64,000 bases of DNA. It comes from Nitzschia sp. pyKryTriq1. Its lineage: Eukaryota; Bacillariophyta; Bacillariophyceae; Bacillariales; Bacillariaceae. Position 1 is the first letter of the stretch; each line of letters opens with the position of its first letter. This document shows positions 15,720 through 49,710 of the stretch, piece after piece. Location of the stretch: the NCBI GenBank assembly GCA_956465555.1, contig OY101122.1:383001-447000 (forward strand). The letters are read 5' to 3'. The notes under the pieces were generated by a model that ran no database searches, was not told the DNA's origin, and worked only from the letters and a program-made list of their open reading frames with translations. Position numbers and translations under genes: made by a program.

Positions 15720-18700
15720 ATGAGCAACATCAGTACCAGTAGTAGTAGTAGCCTTGGATCGCATAGCCCACCCTCACCGACGGCCACATCGTCGGTGCAA
15801 GTAGTCGTTCGCTTGCGTCCTTTGAACGAGAAGGAGAAGAAGCACGGAACCTTGCCGGTCGTTTCGGCGTCGACCAACGAAAAGTCAGTGACTGTCATCA
15901 AAGGGCAGGGAAGCCGTCAAGCCAAGACTTCCTACAAATTCGACAATGTCTTTACTGCCTTTTCGTCTCAAGAAGAAGTATTTGAGGCTACCTTGCAACC
16001 TGTCATTCGAGATGTCTTGATGGGCTTTGAGTCGACTGTCTTTGCCTACGGTCAAACGGGTGAGTAGATTACAGATAACAATACCCCTCCCACTTTTGCT
16101 GTATGAATATGTATTTTCACCATCCTAACTAACTACATCATGGGAAAACGACGCCAACCACTGCTCGGAACAACCAACAGGCACTGGGAAAACGCATACC
16201 ATGGAAGGCGATCTCAGCGACTCGGAATTGCACGGGGTAATTCCCCGTTCTGCGACGGCCATCTTTCAAGCCTTGGATCAACCGCATTACTTGGAACGAT
16301 CGCTCTACGTGTCGTTTTTGGAGATTTACAATGAGGATTTGTGTGACCTATTGGCACCGACCAACAAAAAGACCAAACTCGACATTATGGAAGGAAAGAA
16401 TGGACCCTTCTGTCGGTAAGTCATTATTTTCAAATCGTCATCAATACACATAAGGAGACGAACCATTGTCTAATTTCAATTTCTTCTGCTTGCTCTCCCT
16501 AGGGGTTTGTCGGAAACCGAGGTCAATTCCGCCGAAGAGGTCCTAGCTCTCATGCGGAAGGCTCAAGACCAACGCCAAGTAGGGGAGACCAATATGAACA
16601 AACAGTCGTCGCGATCTCATTGCATCTTTACCCTCAGAGTACAAGCCAAGCGAAAAGTAGGAGATGGTAGCGTCTTGGAAGTTAGTGGAAAGCTCCACTG
16701 CGTCGACTTGGCGGGATCGGAATGCGCCAAGTCGGCGGATATGGAGAAGGGATATGATGACCAACAGGCTTCGCGGGAGCGAGAACGAATGAATATCAAT
16801 CGATCGCTCTTGACCTTGGGCCGAGTGGTCTCGATGCTCAAGGAACAAAGCCAGGGCAAGAAAAACAAAAATATTCGTATTCCCTACCGTGATTCCAAGC
16901 TCACGCGTATTCTTCAAGAGTCGCTTGGAGGTCGATGCAAAACTTGCCTTATTGCTACAGTATCTCCCTCGGTAACTGCGATTGAAGAATCCATGTCAAC
17001 GCTGAATTACGCACAGGCGGCTAACGGGATTATCAATAAACCTGTCACTTCTTCCCTAATGACAGCAGGGACGTCTTCCATGTCCATCGATAAAAAGGCT
17101 CTGGGCGGAGGAGATGACAAGACCGGAGCGGTGGAGCATTGGCACGAAATGGAGTGCCGTCTCCAATATATGCAATCTCAGGTAGAAGAAGCCCAACAAG
17201 CCCTTGCACGAAAGCATTTGCAACAGCAGGAGTTGATGGAAAAGACAGAAGCCGCCGAAGCTGCCCGGGCGGACGCTGTTGCTCAGCTGGAAGAATCACA
17301 GCGAGAAAAGAAAGTCTTGGAAAAAGAGATCGAACAGCATGTTACCGTTAATCAACAGCTCTCCGAACGGTTAAAACAGACGGAACAAACCTTGCGAGAA
17401 ACAGGGGCAATTCTCAAGGCAACCCAGGAAACCGAATGCCGTCTGACTAAGGAGGCTCAAGATTTGATGTCACTTCTTCGCAAGTCTACCGAGGATGGGG
17501 ACGCTATGCACGAGACTCTCATCCAACATCGTGAAGACGAAGTTTCACGTCGAGGCGCAACGAGAACGTTTCAGGATTCTATGCTTGACTTGCTGACGGA
17601 AACAGCCAAAACTCTAGATTCGATTGGTTATGCTCACAAGGAGCAAAACGCCAACCTTCTTGATTCTTCGGCCAAACATCTCAATGCACAGAACGCTGCC
17701 ATTGACAACCACCAACAGCTTGTTGAAGAGATCAAGAAGAGTATCAAAGTCACCGTGGCATCACTGAAGGAACAAGTCATGGGTGAGAGTGGAATAACTC
17801 AGATCTGCAACGAAACAGCATTTGACATTAGTCGCAGCACAGACGCCCTTCGTACCCTTGGATCTGACTATGTGCGAGAGACCAAAAGCGCGTGCAAATC
17901 TCTTCAAGAGCGCCTCATTTCTTCCGGGGCAAAGCTCAGCCAGATGGAAAAAGACTATGCTGCTTCTTCTGGAAAAATGCTACAGACACTGACTCACGAT
18001 GTCATGGAATCCAAAGAGAACCTTTCACAAATGGTTGCATCTATGACTGAGGCATTGTCCCACGCGAAGGACGAACGCAACAAATCCCGCCAAACACTTT
18101 GTAAAATGATTGCAGACTGGAAGGCTTTGTCAGTGGAGGCTGCGGAGACAGTTAGACACACTTCGAAGGCTCAAGGGATAAATGTGTTATCACTTCTTGA
18201 GATGCTCGCCTCGGAAGCCAAGCGTCATGATGATGTATCGAGAGAGCTTTCCGAACAACAAGAATTTCTTCAACGGCAAAGCAAGCTTCATATCAGGAAG
18301 CTAGGAGAACAAAAGAACCGCCTAGCTTCCCAGAGGGAGTCGTTCGAATCTTCAAGTCAGAAAGCAAGCGAGCTTTGCGATTTGATGATGGCAAATATTA
18401 TGAGTGGAGTTCAAGATCTCTTGAAGAAGGAGATTGCCACTATCAGCGAACATCATGATAAGTCCTCAGCGAGTTTCTTGTCGTCGAACGTGGAACTATT
18501 GGACACGCATCAAGGAATTCTCGGTTCTACCAAGGAACTATTCGACAATATTGGAGCAAGCAACAATGTTTTGAAGGAGCACGGCGACGCCATCCGAGGC
18601 ATGGACGAGAAAGCTATAGAGGTTCTGAGAGCAACGCAAGCAGCTTTGGAAAGCCTTCAAAAGGACAACGACATCCACGAAAAGGCTTTGGTTGTGGCCG

Positions 18701-19644
18701 CCAACTCAATCAAAGAACATTCTGAGAGGGTTGAGAAGGAAGACTTGATGCAAGTTGAAGAGATGACCCTATCAATGAACACGCAGGGTGAAAAGTGCGG
18801 GGATCAGTTGGCTAACAGCATCCTAGAACGCACCCAGACAAGCGCGAATGAACTTGCAAGTGTGTGCAAGGACTCCTTTTTGTTCGCAAAGAAGGAAACC
18901 ATCGATGCTACTACACACTTTCTCAAGGCGTCAGTCGAGGAGCCTGTGACGAAGTTCGATGTTGCCTCCAGAGAAATGATCGGCGAAGTTGATAGCAAGA
19001 CAGTTAGCGGCAAGGAGTCGATCGAGAAGATTGCTCAATTGCACATCACTCAGCTCAATGAGACGTCGCAGTACATGGAGAAACTGTCAAGACAGTTTGA
19101 ATCTGAATTGACTTCTCAGGCAAAGTCAATCATTGAGTATCGTGAAACTATGACAAATCATTGCAAAAACAATGAAGAAGCAATGGAAGAAAACCTTGCC
19201 GTCTGCTTGAACCACACATCCAGTGTACAGCATTCGGTCAGCGACTTTGCCATCAACGTTATTAAAGCGGGCGAAAACCCTGCTCCTGTCGAAGACAGAA
19301 ATGTTCTATCTTTCCGTGAGGAGCTATCTTCCACTCCAGCTGACCACATTATTTTGCGAGAACTTAAGAACGATGCGGCTGCGACATCATCCGAGGACGT
19401 TTTAGACCATCCAGTCCATGAGGAAGAGAACGCTTCTTCTTCTACTCCGAATCAAAAAGACACAACTTGCTTTGAGACTACTTCGCTGTCATCAATGCCC
19501 GTCCTCCAAGAGCTAACGAATGCGGAAAATTGTCCTTTTGCGCCAGAAGAAGGACCAGGGGACATGAACAAACGAAGGGCAGTTGGCGGTACTGAGCCCA
19601 CCCAGAATGCATCCAGATCCAAACGAGTTCGGACCAAAAGATAG
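15720..19644 (+). CDS. Kinesin-5-like (BimC/Eg5) mitotic motor, three exons
   Basis: Gene model: 15720-16059, 16181-16415, 16503-19644, giving 1238 residues. The N-terminal motor (about residues 20-375) has the P-loop GQTGTGKT at 111-118, switch I NKQSSRSH, and switch II DLAGSE at 260-265. The motor is followed by a long coiled-coil stalk. The overall length, N-terminal motor, neck-linker region and stalk fit kinesin-5, the tetrameric motor that slides antiparallel spindle microtubules. A C-terminal NKRR-type basic cluster may be a nuclear signal. Intron 1 is phase 1 and splits the codon of the third Gly of the P-loop; intron 2 is phase 2. Kinesin-5 is favoured over other N-kinesins, but no diagnostic BimC box was identified. 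Confidence 0.8.
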
Positions 19645-21975: not shown

Positions 21976-23901
21976 TTACACATCTTCGGTGCTATCATTC
22001 TCCTCGGAAGAGATGTCAGCAGTCTGGGGGGCGGCAGAGTTCTTGAACTGGGCTTCCTTCTCGTCTCCACTCTCGACGCCGAGCTCCTTCTTAGCGGCAC
22101 CTTCCTTGGCAGCGATCCATTCCTCGACTTCCTCATCGTATCCATCAAACAAGCAAAGCTCCCAGCCCTCGAAGAACTTGGGTGCCAAGAAGAGACGGGC
22201 AGGAATACACAGCAGAGTCATGAAGGGGAAAACGATGGCAACCGAAGGAGTGTTCTGCACAAAGAAGACACCCAAGAAGAACACAATCTGGAAGACGGTG
22301 TACATGTGGATACGCTTGGTCGAAATGTACTTGGTGTAGGGATTCTCAGGGAACTTGCTGGGTTGTTGGAAGAACAAGAGGAAGCGGTTCCAGAATTGAA
22401 TTCCAGGCAAGGAGGAGAGACCCATGAACAAGAACACACCCAACAAGACGGGAAGGGGAATTTGCTTGAGGGCTGTCAAGAAGAGGAGCGAAAGACCGAC
22501 CAACAAGTGGGAGAAGAAGTAGGTCAATCGAGTCTCTTGCACTTTGATGATTTTGCCGTCCTTGTCCTTCTCGGCAAGGTTGTTCAAGTGCACAATGCAA
22601 GGAACGGTGGTGGCCACGAGCCAAGGAAGTCCTAGGAAACCGTTGACCATGTTGCAAGCGCCGTTCAAGAAAAGATCCCAGTTGTAGGACTCTCCGTGCT
22701 GCAAGTTGTTTCCGGGGTTGTAGATCAAGTGCCATGTGATACCATTGTCGAGGTAGAACAAGATGTAGGAAAGAAGGGCCGGTCCAGCCGCCATGAAGGG
22801 GACCCAGCTCTTTCCGTTCAAGTCACCCATGTCAGCAAACCAAGGTCGTGTTCCAACAGGAGCAGCTTGGTCCTCACAGTCATCGGGCCAGAATTGCGTG
22901 CAGGCAGTGTCGCAGCAGGCGTAGGTGGGCTCAAAGCTATCGGGAACATTCAATCCTGGGACCTCGATGTCTGGGAAGCCAACGTTGGCAACAACGGCCC
23001 AGATAATGACGGCAACAGTGACACCAAAGTCGTGAACGGAGTTGCGAATATCTTGGTTACAGAAGAAAGCCGACGTCTTGAAGCCGCGGAAAAAAAAGAT
23101 GGTAGCAGTGGTTCCCAAACCCAAAATGATGCTCAACAGGGCAGTTTCTTGTTTGCTGTAGTCTTCATTGTCCGCGTTGCTTTCATGGAAAAGGTTATCG
23201 GGGTCCAAGTACCGAAGGAGACCACCAGGTCCGAACGGACTTCCGATAGCGTTCAAGATGAAAATCGAAACAATCAACAACGCGAAAATGTCGTCGGTGA
23301 AACGAGTTGCGTATCGGACGTATCGGGTAAGATCGAAGAAGGCCGTAAAGGTCGTGTATCCAAAAGTCCAGATCGACACCCAGGCGTAGAAGGGAAGGAA
23401 CGGAATATCAAGATTCTTGGACATGCCGTAGATCACGGTACTCATAATCAAGACAGGACCAGTAGATCCGACGATGATGGTAGGCATTCCACTGAACAGA
23501 GACATGAACACACCAACCCAACAAGTAGCCAGGATGGTCTCGACCGCACCAATGTGGTTCTCGGTGTTTCGGCTGTAGACAGCTCCAAAAGTAAGGGTGG
23601 GGGCGATGACGGTAATGAACATCAAAAGAGACACAGCAACAGTCTTCTGGTTGAAGTTGGTCATCTCCTGGACCCAGTAGGCTCCGATGGTGGATCGAAC
23701 CTCCTCGATCATACCGCGGCCCCATGGCTTGCCAGGCTCTGTAGTCGTCGAGAGAAAGAACAAAGACCGTGAGCAACTCTGAAGTCAGAAACAACCTCAT
23801 AAATTACCAGGGACCATTCGAAGTAGCTTACCAATGAAGACCTTTCCGGCGGTAGGAACCAAATCAGCGTTCCCGGTAGTATCCTTAGGATCCGGCGACA
23901 T
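21976..23901 (-). CDS. SLC4/band 3-type anion (bicarbonate or borate) transporter, two exons
   Basis: Gene model: complement of 21976-23738 and 23832-23901 (phase-1 intron of 93 nt), 610 residues. The protein is polytopic with roughly 12-14 hydrophobic segments. SLC4 landmarks include MPTIIVGSTGPVLI, FTDDIFALLIVSIFI, LNGACNMVNGFLGLPWLVAT and LPVLLGVFLFMGLSSL. The cytoplasmic N-terminus is only about 40 residues and lacks the large animal band 3 domain, and the C-terminus is an acidic tail. SLC4 proteins move HCO3-, sometimes with Na+ or in exchange for Cl-; plant and yeast relatives move borate. In diatoms SLC4 proteins take up bicarbonate for carbon concentration, so that is the likeliest role here, at the plasma or a plastid membrane. 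Substrate is not provable from sequence. Confidence 0.85.
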
Positions 23902-36690: not shown

Positions 36691-37485
36691 GGCGTTGATT
36701 GGTTAGTGCTTGCAAATATCCATGGTGAAGAACAACATAAAAATAACTACTACTAGTATAACGAAGATTCTAATCTCTCCTCGACTTTTATCATTTATCA
36801 AATACTACCATTGTCAACAACTCTTGCATGATCACTGCGGAGACTCTGCTGATTCACCACAGAGTGTAGCTACGGTGTGGACGAAGAAAAGTACTAGCTA
36901 GTGCTCTAGAGAGTAGTATTTGTCATTTTTTATGTGATTCTTCCGCATTGTCGTACCGGTAACAATACCGGTATCATCTGAAAGAGCCAGCACCACAATA
37001 CGTACCGCGGTACATGACAGGTCCCGCTCACCTCCGCTCGTCGCAGTCCATGTTAAACCCAAATGACGTCATACTCACGATCCATTTTAAGTCACGCATA
37101 AGGTGTTTCAAGCTTCAACGTCGACGTCATAGCAGCTACTTACAGCATTCTGATCGGGTTATTTAGAGAGGTGTCACTTTTTCGATCAATCAAAGACGCC
37201 CACGTACGAAAACCTCAGTCTCCTCCTGTGGTCCGTGGTTCCTTACATTATGTTCGCCGTACTCTCACCACTCACTGCTCAAGTACCGGTACTTTTGCTC
37301 AGCTTTTACTGTAGCGCCGCGGCGAGAATCATCCGCATCGAGCGAGAATCGAGAAAGCAAGCAAGGCCACCCGGATGATTCTTCGCTGGGGCTTCGGTTT
37401 TTGAAGTTAGTTTGGGCGGATCGATGCATGCAGAAGAGGCGCAAATAGGCACAAGAAGCAATTGCAACAACTACTAGAGGGGAGA
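36691..37485. other. Intergenic, possible promoter with CRE-like sites
   Basis: Contains CCGGTAACAATACCGGTA (36955-36973), TGACGTCA at 37064-37071 and a related CGACGTCA near 37132. These lie 350-420 bases upstream of the next ATG. No gene recognised. Confidence 0.45.
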
Positions 37486-38763
37486 ATGGACGGAAGTTGT
37501 GATTGCGCAGCGAAAAACAGTCGAGAGCCTCCTCCTAACAATACCAACACCATGTTTCGAAGAATACTCAAGAAGTTCAAGGGTTCCCATCCAGGCGACG
37601 AGGATGAGGAGAATCCGGCTAGTCATGTTCACGAGCAAGCTCCTGTTAAAGAGGCTAATACTCCCACGAGTACTGCAGAGGCCAAATCTGAGGAGCCTGC
37701 TGATAACACACCTTCAGAGTCAGAGGATCACGATGATCACAATGACGATGACCACTCCTCTTCTGGTGGGTCTGATTCTTCCAGTGAAGCTTATTACTCA
37801 CTCGATGAGATGATCATCGTGCCTACCCGTCGAATCAGTGAAGTAGCAGTATCCTCGCAGCCTGCTTCGGAGGAAGTAAGTTCTCATGATCATTTCGATC
37901 TACAACTCTTAGCACGCACACACTTTCCAGACTTTGGTGTGCCTGACGGCGAGTATACTGATACTAGTGACGATGAGTCAGAGATACAAAAAAAGGAGGA
38001 AAAGTATCAAACTAAGGAGGATCAGGATGTTGCAGTCTTTATGGATCTTATGAAGCGAATGTCCATCAAGAGCCTCCTGCATCTACTTCAAGGCCATGTA
38101 CGTACCCAGAATTTGCCCAATGAGTATCTGCAGCAATATAATGCAGCCCTCTCTCAGAGTGATGAAACAAAGTATCCGTCCAAAGAGACAGAAACTGCTA
38201 TGTTGAACAAACCTTTACCGAGGAAGAAGGCATTCCGCTGGGCCGAAATCACGTCGGAAAAAGTGCGCGTGGTGGTCTATGAGATTGAAAGCGTCAAAGA
38301 GCACAAAGATTTGTGGTGGACTCCCGAGGAGATGCACGCAATTAGGTCTGAACTCATTGATGTAGTTAAATTCTTCCGAAAACGTCGCCCGAACTACATC
38401 ACGTCTGTTGAGATTGTTGCGAAACATCAGGCCGAAGAGTCCGTGCTTGAAGATCACATGAAAAAGTTAACTGAGGACTCTTTCGCACGTGGACTGGAAA
38501 GCCATGTAGTGAAATATCTCAGCGACCACCGAAAAAGTACAATTCAAGCAGTTCTAGAAGAGCAAAAAGAGTGTCGATTGTGCAATGATAACAAAGAAAC
38601 AACTATGCACTGCTTACGCGAACAATCCGTGGCATACAGTCAAATGTCCACCAGGTTTGCAGCCTGCATGGCGAAATGCGATGAAATCGATTCGCTGAAA
38701 GCGAGTATGTCTCGGTGGCGTGCCGCCCCTACTTCCGCCTCACCTGGCTTCTTTGATGCGTAG
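37486..38763 (+). CDS. Orphan protein with W-x4-KVxV / DLWW family core
   Basis: A 425-residue single-exon ORF; the frame opens at 37462 but the first ATG is at 37486. Residues 1-190 are acidic and disordered with a His/Asp cluster. The core (about residues 245-320) reads FRWAEITSEKVRVVVYEIE, then KDLWWTPEEM, then ELIDVVKFFRKRRPNYI. The remainder is helical with a CRLCNDN pair of cysteines. From memory, this strand-plus-tryptophan core recurs in many copies in diatom genomes and has no assigned function. The short gene at 20980-21456 shows a related arrangement. Confidence 0.65.
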   Translation: MDGSCDCAAKNSREPPPNNTNTMFRRILKKFKGSHPGDEDEENPASHVHEQAPVKEANTPTSTAEAKSEEPADNTPSESEDHDDHNDDDHSSSGGSDSSSEAYYSLDEMIIVPTRRISEVAVSSQPASEEVSSHDHFDLQLLARTHFPDFGVPDGEYTDTSDDESEIQKKEEKYQTKEDQDVAVFMDLMKRMSIKSLLHLLQGHVRTQNLPNEYLQQYNAALSQSDETKYPSKETETAMLNKPLPRKKAFRWAEITSEKVRVVVYEIESVKEHKDLWWTPEEMHAIRSELIDVVKFFRKRRPNYITSVEIVAKHQAEESVLEDHMKKLTEDSFARGLESHVVKYLSDHRKSTIQAVLEEQKECRLCNDNKETTMHCLREQSVAYSQMSTRFAACMAKCDEIDSLKASMSRWRAAPTSASPGFFDA

Positions 38764-39330: not shown

Positions 39331-42300
39331 TTACCACCGTCCTGCGCCTGCGCCATCGTACACATCGTAATTGGCAGGAGGTGGGGGGGCCGTTTTCTTT
39401 TTCGGCTTCTTGGCGCCGACCTTTTTCTTCCCAGTGGACTTCTTTTTGGGTTTTGGCTGCTCTTCTTCGAAGTCGAGGAACCAATCGCTCTCCAAGGCTT
39501 CGGCGGCAGTGATCCGTCTCGTCACGTCAACCGTCAACATCCTAGAAATCAACATTTTTGCGTCATCCGACACGGCTGACCAATACTTTCGATGGAACTG
39601 GAATTCACCATACCGGATCTTTTCTAAGCACTCCTCTCCTTCACCTCTAAAGGGCCGATAACCACCCAAAATGATGTAGATGATAACACCAAGACTCCAG
39701 ACATCACATTCCACGTCGTATTCAGGGTTATGTTCGATGATCTCAGGTGCGACGAACCCTTCCGTTCCGCACACCGTAGTCAAAGAATTTGGCTGAAGGA
39801 CCTTCTTTGCATAGCCAAAGTCGGTAATCTTGACATCGGTGTCACTTCCGTCTACCAATAGCATATTTTCTGGTTTCAAATCGCGAATGGCTATTCGATT
39901 GGCGTGGCAGTAGGCCAGACCCGAAACAAGGCGCTTCGCCACTATTACGCCCTCATCTTCGTCGTAGAATTCCTTTTCAATGATCTTGTCAATCAAATAG
40001 CCCCCCATGAGTCGTTCCATGACAATGTATGTGAAATCAGGCTCGTCGAAAACCTCCTTGAGTCGAACAATGTAGGGGCAGTCGACCAACATTTTCAGAC
40101 AGGAGATCTCGCTTTGTAGTGCAACAGCATCTTCTTCCCACAAATCGACACGAGGAATACGCTTCACAGCATATGTTTCCCCGCTCTCCATCTGCTTGCC
40201 TTCGTGGATAACAGAAAAGGTACCAATACCAATCTGCTTGCCCCAGTCGTAGCAGTCCTCGAAGTCGTCTTCGACTGCATTTTCGACGCCAAGCCTGTTT
40301 TCGTCTTCGGCCCTGCCAGGACCTCCCATGCCTGCCAAGGACAAGAATTTGTTGGTCTTGATAAGAGCTTGCAAGGCTTTTTTTGCGCCAGTTTGATCCG
40401 TGCGTTCGGGTAAGTTCGTTTCCATTTGGGGGCGATTCGCTGTGAGATCCTTCGCGGCCAGCATTTCGGCGTCCAAACCCATCCATTCGCAACGAAGTGC
40501 ATCCTCAGCCGTCAACCGGACCTCGGGATCCACTTGAAGCATGTTGGCAATCATGTCCTTGGCCGACTCAGAAATATCCGCCCAATACTTGTCGTGAAAT
40601 TCGTAGTCTCCCCGAATAATGAACTGTGCCAATTCGTCAGGTGGCCCTTCAAACGGGGCATACCCACCCAAAAGAATGTATGTCACAACACCCACGGACC
40701 ACATATCGCAACGCTCATCGTATCCTTCCACCTGGAAGTCCAGAATTTCTGGAGCTACATATTGTGCTGTACCGCACAGAGTACTCAACGAATTTGTCCC
40801 CGTGACTCTCTTGGCAAATCCAAAATCAGCCAATTTGATGCTCGTGTCATCATTATCGTCCTGTAGTAACAATGGGATAAGACAACATTGCAAATAAACA
40901 GCCACATATCATTGTCACTCCAATAAGACTTCGCTGTACGTACCACAAGCAATAGGTTCTCCGGTTTGATGTCACGGTGGGCTACCCTTTTCTCGTGACA
41001 ATATAGTATGGCTTCGAACAAAATTTTACAGACCCCTCGGGCCTCTCGTTCCGTGTATACTTCTTTATCGACGATTCGTGAGAGCAAATCTCCTCCTTTC
41101 ATTTCTTCCATCACCATGAAGCAGTGGTCATCTTGTTCAAAGACGTCAAAAAGTCGGACAATATGGGGCCCTCCACGCAACATTTTGAGGGCGGCAATCT
41201 CATCCTTGAGCGTGGACTCACCCCCACTTTCCATTTTTGATAGGATGACTTCCTTGACGGCGTAGGTTTTATTGGTGCGCCTATGAACGCAGCGATACAC
41301 AAACGCGTAACCACCCTCTCCCAGTTCATCTCCAATTTCGTAGAAATCTTCGAAGGGTTGTCCAGTGATACTATCTTCCACGAATCGATCTTCCTTCTTA
41401 CGAGCCTTTTTGGCAATCTTGTTCTCTGTCTTGTCGTCCTTGCGTTTTTCGAGGTACTCTGTGAAACCATCATTCAACATTTTGAAGCGATTGGCAGTAA
41501 TGAGCTATAGTGGGAGTGAGGGGGAAGGGGGGGGGGGGGGGCAAAACACCATGAGTCAAACCAAATGGTGAATCTCCAAATAAATCACGTTCCAAGACAG
41601 TTCATGTAATTCGTACCGTTCCAATAGCGTTCTTCAGTTTCCGCTTGCCTTCAATAAGGTTCTGAATCTTTTTCACATTGAGTTGTCGTTCTTCCAATGC
41701 ATCGTCTCCACGGACAACCCACTCGGATTCCAAGGCCCGCGCGGCAGTGATACGTTTCTTTGGATTTACCGTCAACATGCGGCTCACCAAGTCCTTGGCT
41801 CCATGGCTTGCGCCGTTCCAGAATTCTGGGCGGAATTCGAATTGACCATCGCGGGTTTGATCGAAAATAACATCATCGTCATCATCATCAAAAGGCAGAT
41901 ACCCGCCCAACAATAGAAACAAGAGACATCCGACGGACCACACGTCGCATTTGACATCGTATGCCGGGAATCGCTCCAACATTTCGGGTGCCAAATATCC
42001 AGGGGTTCCACAAAGTGTCCGACAACTGTTTCGTTTCTTGACGTACTTCGCAAAGGAAAAGTCTGCCAGTTTGATGGAATTCAAATCTTTGTGCTCTGAT
42101 AGCAAAAGATTTTCTGGTTTGATATCCCGATGGGCCACTCGTTTGTCATGCATGTACGCCAGGGCACCTAATACGCAACGTGTGGTGCTTCGGGCCTCTC
42201 TTTCGGTAAAGGTTTTCTTTTCGATAATATACTCCAAGAGTTCTCCACCTTCCATGAGCTCCATGACTAGATAACAAAACGCTTTCTCCTCGTACACTTC

Positions 42301-42895
42301 GTAGAGTTGTACGACATTGGGCCCTTCTCTGGCGAGTTTGAGGTTGGTAATTTCGTCTTTCAGGGCGTCGCGGTCTCCCCAAAACATGGTGGATCGATCA
42401 ATCTGTTTGACGGCATATTCGGCGCCTGTCGGTCGATGCGTCCCGATAAAGACGACAGCAAAGGCCCCTAGACCCAGCTTTTAAAATAAAAAGAGAATGT
42501 GTGCGACAGAGACAGCCGGGAAAGAGAAAGTTAGCGTGTGTGGAGGAAACACCACGAGGCGTTGAAATCGTAGCGAACGGACACGAGGTGTTGAAATCGT
42601 AGCATTCAAATAAATATTGACTGACTCCTTTCATTGAATTGACTTTTGCTACTTTTCAAAGCATATACTGTACTGTACATATCAGTGGTATCCGGCTCAC
42701 CTTCCTTCCTCGTTTGTATACATCATCAAAACTGACAGATACGACCGATTTGACATCTTGATCCATCGACGGGGCAACGGAAAAATCGTCATCGTCTTGA
42801 TAGGTGTTTCGCATCGACTTGCGTTGGGGCCTGGCCCCGAACCCGTCGCCCTGGGTTTTCTTCTTCTTCTTTCCAGCTGAATTGGTACGTTCCAT
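39331..42895 (-). CDS. Triple-domain CaMK-type protein kinase, four exons
   Basis: Gene model: complement of 39331-40860, 40944-41504, 41617-42477 and 42701-42895; all junctions are phase 0 with GT-AG introns (83, 112 and 223 nt), 1048 residues. Three full Ser/Thr kinase domains lie in a row, about residues 64-330, 403-667 and 743-1000. Domain 1: LGLGAFAVVF, AVKQ, HRDIKPEN, but DFS instead of DFG. Domain 2: LGEGGYAFVY, AVKE, HRDIKPEN, DFGFAK, APE. Domain 3: IGIGTFSVIH, AVKR, IRDLKPEN (HRD His replaced by Ile), DFGYAK, APE. All are closest to CaMK/CDPK-type catalytic domains; no EF-hands are visible. The N-terminus is Lys-rich and the C-terminus is a Lys/Pro tail. Domain 2 has all canonical residues; domains 1 and 3 may be regulatory. 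Confidence 0.85.
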
Positions 42896-44033
42896 GGTAT
42901 TGTGCTTCACTTGGCTTTCTCCTCGATAGATGGATAGATGGATGGATGGATGGATGGATGGATAACCGAACCGAAGATCTTTTGTGTGCGGGGATTACTA
43001 GAACTCTCGCAGTGTTGGTGACTGCTTCAACCCTCCTCGGTTATGAACTCTCTATTAGACACTGGTGTGTGATTTCTATGATTGCACCACTCTCTACAAG
43101 TTGAGAGACTACTGTACAGCAAGGTAAATTGGTCAGTCACCGAAGAGTGAGAAGTAGATTCGCTCTGATTGCGGGTCTCGGGCGGCTTATCTTTTGTTAT
43201 GACCCGCCCGCGGCCGCGCCTACATTCATCGCATCTCGTCTCTCCCTCAAATAATTTCAATTCCAGACCCACCATCCAACACGAGCTCCCCGTGTACCTG
43301 GGAGGGCTTCCCACGAGGTCGGTGTCTGGAACGGACGCCGTCCAGGCGGGGGTTTGCAAATGACGTCATGCCTGGGATCTTTATGTCTCGGAGGTTCACA
43401 ACCGCACCCCCAGTCAAGTTGTTATTCCGAAATCTCTCTACTAGACAGAGAAACTATAGTGCCGTAGCATTAAAATCACACGAGGAACACCACCGCTCTT
43501 CGAGTCAGTCTTCTACTATTACCGGTACCATTACTGTACTTGTACCGTACGACCTACTAATACTAATCGATCGATTCTTCACCACCACTTGAGCAGTCTT
43601 TATTCTTGTTACTACCAGTACAGTAGAGGTACCTGGTTCGTCCCGGAGGCGGTTCCTCAACATGGATCGATCCATGACCCCCCCCCCCCCCCCCAAACAT
43701 ACAACTAGTAGAGGGACCAACTCCTCCTCGGTCCCTTATCCTCCCCGACCTGCGCTGGCTCCCCGATCATGGATCCTGGGATCCCGATCCGGAACTAGAA
43801 GTCCGATCAGTCGATCTTTTGGTTTCCGTCCTTCTATCCGTCAGACCTATTCCCAACACAAAAATCGCGAAGAAGAATCAACACAATCGCGACGATCGAC
43901 CAATCGTCGACCATGGCGTTTTATTGTTGCGCTATCACTTGCTACTACCGGTATGTGCTAGTGTGCGAGGCTGATGCGTCCCGTCCCTACGGGTGTCAAG
44001 AAGGAAGAAGAGTCTAGTAGATGATGGAGAAAC
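42896..44033. other. Divergent intergenic region
   Basis: Contains a GGAT microsatellite at 42926-42962, TGACGTCA at 43361-43368, a long C homopolymer at about 43677-43694 and GTACC strings at 43520-43635. Two plus-strand ORFs (43368-43592, 43662-43961) have no domain and partly consist of the homopolymer, so I do not call them. Confidence 0.5.
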
Positions 44034-48759: not shown

Positions 48760-48939
48760 TGCAGTGTCCTCTCGACGTCATCGGTCTGTCCGTCCCTTCC
48801 TCGACGTCATACTGACACTGCGTGACGTCATAGCGTTCCTACTAGTCGTGACACCGCCGTCTATGACCAATGCATTTCAACTAGAGGCGATCCTTACTTC
48901 ACAAACTTCACAAGACATCCAAGATCGCCATCACCACTA
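48760..48939 (+). repeat. Left LTR
   Basis: 180 bases, starting TGCAGTGTCC. Contains three ACGTCAT motifs, one within a full TGACGTCA palindrome (48823-48830). Confidence 0.85.
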
Positions 48940-49710
48940 TGGGCCATCACTATCCCCGGCCTCGGCACTCTCTCCATTCGTGCCCTAACGATCATTGACA
49001 CGTGCACTACTCTCTGCGAGATTGTTCGCATTGAAGACAAGCAAAGCGAAACAATGGCGCACCTATTCGATGTGCAATGGCTATCTCGCTACCCTCGGCC
49101 CTTGCGATGCATTCATGATCCCGGCACCGAGTTCGTCGGTACCGCCTTTCAAGCCATGCTCGTCCACCATGGCATTGAACCTGTCCCCTCTACCGTCAAG
49201 AATCCACAATCAAATGCCATTTGCGAACGTATCCATGCCACCGTCGGCGACATGCTTCGCACTACCCTCAATACGGAACCTCCTCAGGACTTCCCGGCAG
49301 CCATCGAGCTAATTGACTCCATTCTCGCCTCAGCTCAGTACGCTACTCGCGCTGCCGTGCACACTACTATTGGTGTCTCGCCCGGCGCGCTCGTCTTTCA
49401 ACGCGACATGCTCCTACCAATTCCGATTATTGCCCAGTATAACCAATTCCGCGCCCGCCGACAAGCACGCATTGACGAAAACGCGCGACGCGAAAATCTT
49501 CGCCGCCGCTTCAAAGACTACGAGCCGGGCGACGAAGTACTGGTCCTCTCCTACAAACCCGATAAGCTCGAACCTCGAGCCACCGGCCCCTTTGTCATTG
49601 CCCAAGTCCATGTCAACGGCACCGTAACTATTCAACGCAACGCCCATGTTTTTCAGCGCATTAACATCCGGCGCGTCAAGCCTTACCTTCATTAATCTTT
49701 GGAGGCAGGA

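Follow-up and report, generated by a model that had tools for sequence, protein, structure and literature searches.

By its sequence, the protein encoded on the minus strand at positions 39331–42895 of the window (the whole stretch of 64,000 nucleotides that was analysed) is a eukaryotic kinase of the CAMK group with several kinase domains arranged in tandem. Pfam family PF00069 was found in three separate stretches of the 1,048-residue chain, and the E-value of 8.2e-210 for the whole protein rules out a chance match; the original prediction of three complete CaMK-type kinase domains in one chain is thereby borne out. With moderate confidence, we interpret the locus as a single gene for a CAMK-group Ser/Thr kinase of 1,048 residues whose three tandem domains (D1, D2 and D3) would have originated by internal duplication and which may possess a built-in relay.

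Gene model and domain architecture

Splicing of the window sequence joins four exons, from an ATG at 42895 to a TAA stop codon finishing at 39331 on the minus strand, into one uninterrupted frame for a protein of 1,048 amino acids. The coordinates and the four-exon model predicted originally match the window sequence exactly. The gene and its product comprise the following features.

42701–42895, minus strand: exon 1, with the start codon, an N-terminal tail carrying a five-lysine run and the F-D-D-x-Y lead-in of D1; donor GTGAGC
41617–42477, minus strand: exon 2, beginning with the D1 glycine loop and running into the regulatory-like segment of linker 1
41505–41616, minus strand: intron 2 (112 nt), containing a run of 15 G at 41527–41541 on the plus strand
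40944–41504, minus strand: exon 3, with the remainder of linker 1 and D2 as far as the catalytic loop (HRDIKPENLLLV)
39331–40860, minus strand: exon 4, with the D2 C-lobe, linker 2, the entire D3, a lysine-rich tail and the stop codon
41713–42718, minus strand: kinase domain 1 (D1), residues 60–320, split by intron 1; DFG present as DFS at 42055–42063
41472–41691, minus strand: candidate CaMKII-like regulatory segment (autoinhibitory/calmodulin-binding-like), residues 328–363, split by intron 2 and aligned in its context
40477–41342, minus strand: kinase domain 2 (D2), residues 407–667, split by intron 3; canonical at every landmark read
40330–40389, minus strand: weak candidate for a second regulatory helix in linker 2, residues 697–716, by its pattern of 1-5-10 hydrophobic spacing and basic residues
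39475–40251, minus strand: kinase domain 3 (D3), residues 743–1001; HRD present as IRD at 39880–39888, DFG canonical
39334–39474, minus strand: C-terminal lysine- and proline-rich tail, residues 1002–1048, with 13 Lys/Arg in 47 residues

The three introns (223, 112 and 83 nt) are all bounded by GT..AG and all lie in phase 0; none of their lengths is divisible by three, and in-frame stop codons are present in introns 1 and 2 and absent from intron 3. The C-lobe half of D2, linker 2 and D3 share a single stop-free frame of 525 codons, so that no splicing is needed to join them. Introns 1 and 3 are credible because their removal re-creates stretches which are unbroken in the two other domains, so that the repeats act as built-in controls. 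Across intron 1, FDDVYKRGRK is joined to LGLGAF, the counterparts being FEDFYEIGDELGEGGY in D2 and FEDCYDWGKQIGIGTF in D3; across intron 3, LLLV is joined to DDNDDTSIKLADFG in D2, which completes a stretch from the catalytic loop to DFG that runs unbroken through D1 and D3. Intron 2 is supported by the CaMKII-like segment, which is interrupted at this position and re-formed by splicing.

The 112-nt gap modelled as intron 2 is also the place where the locus might be divided into two genes, one with D1 by itself and one with D2 and D3. Read-through of the intron 2 donor leads to a stop after VRIT, exon 3 offers an ATG at M361, and the homopolymer run in the gap is an error-prone sequence. However, the gap is of the GT-AG type and in phase 0, it provides just 112 nt to accommodate a terminator plus a promoter, and a CaMKII-like segment is broken at the gap and restored by splicing. 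We consider a pair of genes very improbable and retain the single chain, which by sequence corresponds to one spliced open frame of 1,048 amino acids, as originally proposed.

Landmark residues were read at 21 positions per domain with CaMK1 as the reference; D1 keeps 20, D2 all 21 and D3 19 of them. The departures are Ser206 for the DFG glycine in D1, and Ile864 for the HRD histidine and Ile757 for the β2 valine in D3. All three domains contain the catalytic lysine (89, 436 and 772 in D1, D2 and D3, respectively), the HRD aspartate (183, 530 and 866), the DFG aspartate (204, 551 and 886) and the catalytic-loop asparagine, and the αC glutamate is kept by D1 and D3. The position of the CaMK1 activation-loop threonine, presumably the CaMKK site, is occupied by threonine throughout (T219, T566 and T901), and an F[ED]DxY lead-in precedes D1, D2 and D3 alike. 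Among the best 60 matches listed per query, the best solved structures are of the CAMK type (RSK2, CaMK1, CDPK and CaMKII), the matched RSK2 domain being, as we assume, the C-terminal one. In NCBIfam, kinase models were matched only below their cut-offs. The EF-hand family, a feature of CDPKs, is absent from the five families reported by Pfam (E up to 0.001), in agreement with the earlier observation that no EF-hands are seen. AlphaFold models of exon 2 (mean pLDDT 40.0, from a three-row alignment) and exon 4 (32.2, from a two-row alignment) were too poor to provide structural support.

Several other features of the window were recorded. On the opposite strand, a 450-codon frame (37411–38763, plus strand) is the next one downstream of the kinase gene; its first half appears acidic by eye, and Pfam reported no family for it (E up to 0.001). 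Homopolymers on the plus strand comprise the 15 G at 41527–41541 in intron 2 and 17 C at 43678–43694 upstream of the kinase gene. A 1,056-codon frame (16474–19644, plus strand) encodes the C-terminal part of a kinesin motor, mitotic kinesin-5-like by eye, followed by a long extra stretch. The 602-codon frame at 21976–23784 (minus strand) strongly matches the HCO3− transporter family PF00955 (E 2.3e-120); in an algal host it might be of interest with regard to the uptake of carbon. At 48826–49695 (plus strand), a fragment of an integrase core suggests a retroelement remnant; its match to rve (E 1.4e-7) reaches 32.2 bits, slightly below the Pfam cut-off of 32.6.

A possible CaMKII-like segment after the first domain

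In a search of solved structures (PDB), the end of the D1 C-lobe together with linker 1 matched CaMKII best (E 6.3e-10), and the alignment extends through RKLKxAIxT; the linker 1 segment is aligned as KRKLKNAIGTLITANR versus RRKLKGAILTTMLATR. Compared with two CaMKII segments, linker 1 reached a score of 38, which was equalled by 16 and 13 of 5,000 shuffles, respectively, in a comparison picked after the CaMKII match of the D1 C-lobe and linker 1 was known. With linker 1 alone as the query, no kinase was retrieved from the PDB (E up to 10) and the sole match was unrelated (E 1.8); linker 2 alone gave no match in the same search. Against the two CaMKII segments, linker 2 (2,991 and 3,234 of 5,000 shuffles), the C-terminal tail (1,307 and 1,344 of 5,000) and the N-terminal tail (2,676 and 2,588 of 5,000) scored at chance level. 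The autonomy threonine of CaMKII, which we take to be Thr286, corresponds to Asn332 after D1 in the CaMKII alignment.

The two linkers share a gapless stretch of 16 residues (KNAIGTLITANRFKML in linker 1 and KKALQALIKTNKFLSL in linker 2) with the 1-5-10 hydrophobic spacing that is seen in some calmodulin-binding helices; this likeness was equalled by 628 of 5,000 shuffles. A scan for calmodulin-type spacings at a net charge of at least 4 proved unspecific, as its three 1-5-10, three 1-8-14 and one 1-5-8-14 matches include a 1-5-10 match in the glycine loop and a 1-8-14 match in the C-lobe of D1. A calmodulin-binding-like segment is thus supported in its context after D1 and only suggested after D2, and control of the kinase chain by calmodulin appears possible.

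Origin of the three domains

Each domain finds its best match in a sister domain of the same chain, 52 to 63 bits above the best solved kinase. The pairwise scores are 262–263 bits for D1 and D2, 241–242 bits for D1 and D3 and 242 bits for D2 and D3, and the best solved kinases score 202 bits with D1 (queried as the 287-residue exon 2), 210 bits with D2 and 179 bits with D3; among the matches listed, D1 and D3 each have an RSK2 domain as their top-scoring solved kinase. In an unrooted tree of nine rows, consisting of D1–D3 and six solved CAMK-type kinases with no AGC row, D1–D3 are set apart from the solved kinases by a branch that has 94/95 support and is present in 98% of 200 bootstrap trees. 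Rooting with six added bacterial kinase rows yielded a D1–D3 clade at 96/95, in a tree in which the bacterial rows L079 and L069 are long-branched and the long L079 row is possibly misplaced. Both trees include three partial rows among the six solved ones and no other kinase from the same organism or its relatives. Within the clade no firm order emerged from the rooted tree, since D2 and D3 are paired in the best tree at 65/49 and the alternatives have p-AU values of 0.40 and 0.44. Topology tests rejected a grouping of D2 with CaMK1/CaMK4 (p-AU 0.019) and did not reject one of D3 with RSK2 at the 0.05 level (p-AU 0.065).

The outgroup was taken from bacterial and archaeal contigs, in which the three-domain alignment as query gave at least 576 confirmed loci. 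The best segments of the 80 loci kept (79 bacterial and one archaeal by title) are at most 41% identical, which makes these loci useful as an outgroup only; six were chosen for their long matches and the other 74 left out. With exon 4 as query no relative was found in bacterial or archaeal contigs, and none was confirmed in viral contigs with exon 4, exon 2 or the three-domain alignment.

D1–D3 thus resemble one another more than they resemble the kinases compared, and are likely derived from internal duplication; the domain trees which the original prediction had called for group the three together and render duplication probable. Its additional idea that the phase-0 introns would have eased the duplication finds no support in the intron positions. 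Exon 2 takes in almost the whole of D1, but D2 is interrupted by intron 3, and its C-lobe is encoded together with D3 in a single exon. Exon duplication as the origin of the repeat was rejected on the same grounds, the mismatch between intron positions and repeat making it an unlikely route.

The three domains could instead be CAMK genes acquired independently and fused, with no internal duplication at all. The trees contain only six solved eukaryotic kinases, and closer single-domain relatives from the same organism could break the D1–D3 clade; moreover, the unrejected pairing of D3 with RSK2 and the unsupported order within D1–D3 leave room for separate sources. These points are opposed by the 52 to 63 bits by which each domain prefers a sister, by the rejected placement of D2 with CaMK1/CaMK4 and by the F[ED]DxY lead-in common to all three. 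We regard independent fusion as unlikely and keep internal duplication as the working interpretation.

Activity, proposed working and relation to known kinases

The motif changes read originally, DFS in D1 and IRD in D3 beside a canonical D2, are present in both codons and landmarks, with D204–S206 encoded by GAC TTT TCC and I864–D866 by ATT CGC GAT. A single base error behind DFS or IRD was rejected, TCC being at least two changes away from any Gly codon and ATT at least two from any His codon. Judged by the inactivity criteria given in the kinome study of Phytophthora infestans (HRD Asp, DFG Asp and Lys; PMC3019232), none of the three domains is predicted to be inactive. According to a report on LRRK2 (PMC6660771), this kinase naturally carries YRD in place of HRD, its G2019S variant (DYG to DYS) is hyperactive, and Y1992F, with Phe at the HRD-His position, has lowered activity. 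By analogy, D1 would probably be competent; D3 is possibly so as well, although IRD may weaken it, given the lowered activity of Y1992F.

The lysine, the HRD aspartate, the DFG aspartate and the activation-loop threonine are kept in D1–D3; three potentially active kinases are therefore the simplest reading. We infer that all three domains fold and bind ATP, and that phosphate transfer would be performed by at least D2, probably D1 and perhaps D3. On this basis the gene looks more like a fusion of three enzymes than like one enzyme with two dead copies.

The original prediction had envisaged a division of labour in which one catalytic domain is flanked by two altered, regulatory ones. Only D2 would then work, and D1 with its DFS and D3 with its IRD would be pseudokinase-like regulators or scaffolds, comparable to plant tandem kinase-pseudokinases and animal JAKs. 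D2 alone is indeed canonical at 21 of 21 landmarks, D3 has the longest branch among D1–D3, the change at the HRD-His position of LRRK2 reduced its activity (PMC6660771), and tandems of a kinase and a pseudokinase form an established class (PMC6170490). However, D1 and D3 retain the catalytic Lys, αC Glu, HRD-Asp, Asn, DFG-Asp and activation-loop Thr; LRRK2 becomes more active with the DYG-to-DYS change and uses YRD as its natural motif; and domain 2 of WTK1 (PMC6170490) is devoid of most key residues, unlike D1–D3. The residue changes are real, but the retained catalytic core makes the assigned roles doubtful, and we consider D2 as the sole active domain to be rather unlikely. Neither DFS nor IRD by itself should be equated with “pseudokinase”.

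For a chain of three active domains, we propose that the activation-loop threonine of one domain (T219, T566 or T901) would be phosphorylated by an adjacent domain or by an upstream kinase, and that the CaMKII-like segment after D1 would keep D1 off until it is removed by calmodulin or another binder. The lysine-rich C-terminal tail may, as a guess, direct the protein to acidic partners or to the nucleus. Activation-loop phosphorylation between the two kinase domains is known from RSK/MSK. We also envisage, as a distinctly doubtful version of the relay, a covalently linked equivalent of the CaMKII oligomer that needs no hub, in which three active CAMK domains would activate each other in sequence and calmodulin would gate D1 and possibly D2 by way of the linkers; if true, this would constitute a one-protein kinase cascade linked to calcium signals. 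Three kinases of the same class at a fixed ratio of 1:1:1 would offer a natural test of the division of labour between duplicates and of a cascade within one molecule, the importance of which hinges on conservation of the three-domain architecture.

CaMKII and CaMK1 share with the predicted protein the domain class and the activation-loop threonine at the CaMK1 position, and the stretch that follows D1 can be aligned, in its context, with the regulatory helix of CaMKII. They differ by having one kinase domain instead of three per chain, and CaMKII additionally by its autonomy threonine, where an asparagine is found here; the CaMKII association (hub) domain is absent from the five families reported by Pfam (E up to 0.001). 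RSK and MSK contain two kinase domains per chain, an N-terminal AGC and a C-terminal CAMK domain. The relay proposed here resembles theirs in the logic of a shared chain, and both D1 and D3 score highest with an RSK2 domain among the solved kinases listed. However, D1–D3 are all of the CAMK type and mutually closest; D1 matches CAMK kinases and groups with D2 and D3, in trees with no AGC row.

A search of the open-access literature on multi-kinase-domain proteins revealed no CAMK triple kinase, and where it was directed at diatoms it led only to the Phytophthora infestans kinome. Among stramenopiles, this kinome study lists three gene models with two tandem ePK domains of the same family (PMC3019232), compared to three domains here. 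Plant triple kinases are known from published counts: 74 soybean kinases bear two or three kinase domains (PMC4378628), and the 1,168 grapevine kinases include 54 with two domains and two with three, the latter printed under one locus name, the multi-domain kinases being spread over 18 families (PMC5878832). A CAMK triple may be among these soybean or grapevine proteins. The original description of a three-domain chain as very rare is fair, although plants have yielded proteins of this kind as well. Wheat WTK1/Yr15, a kinase-pseudokinase tandem whose domain 2 is without most key residues (PMC6170490), shares the tandem architecture and differs in that D1–D3 here all keep Lys, HRD-Asp and DFG-Asp; none of the three is a domain without key catalytic residues, such as defines tandem kinase-pseudokinases. 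The triple-kinase gene is an uncommon variant of known multi-domain kinases.
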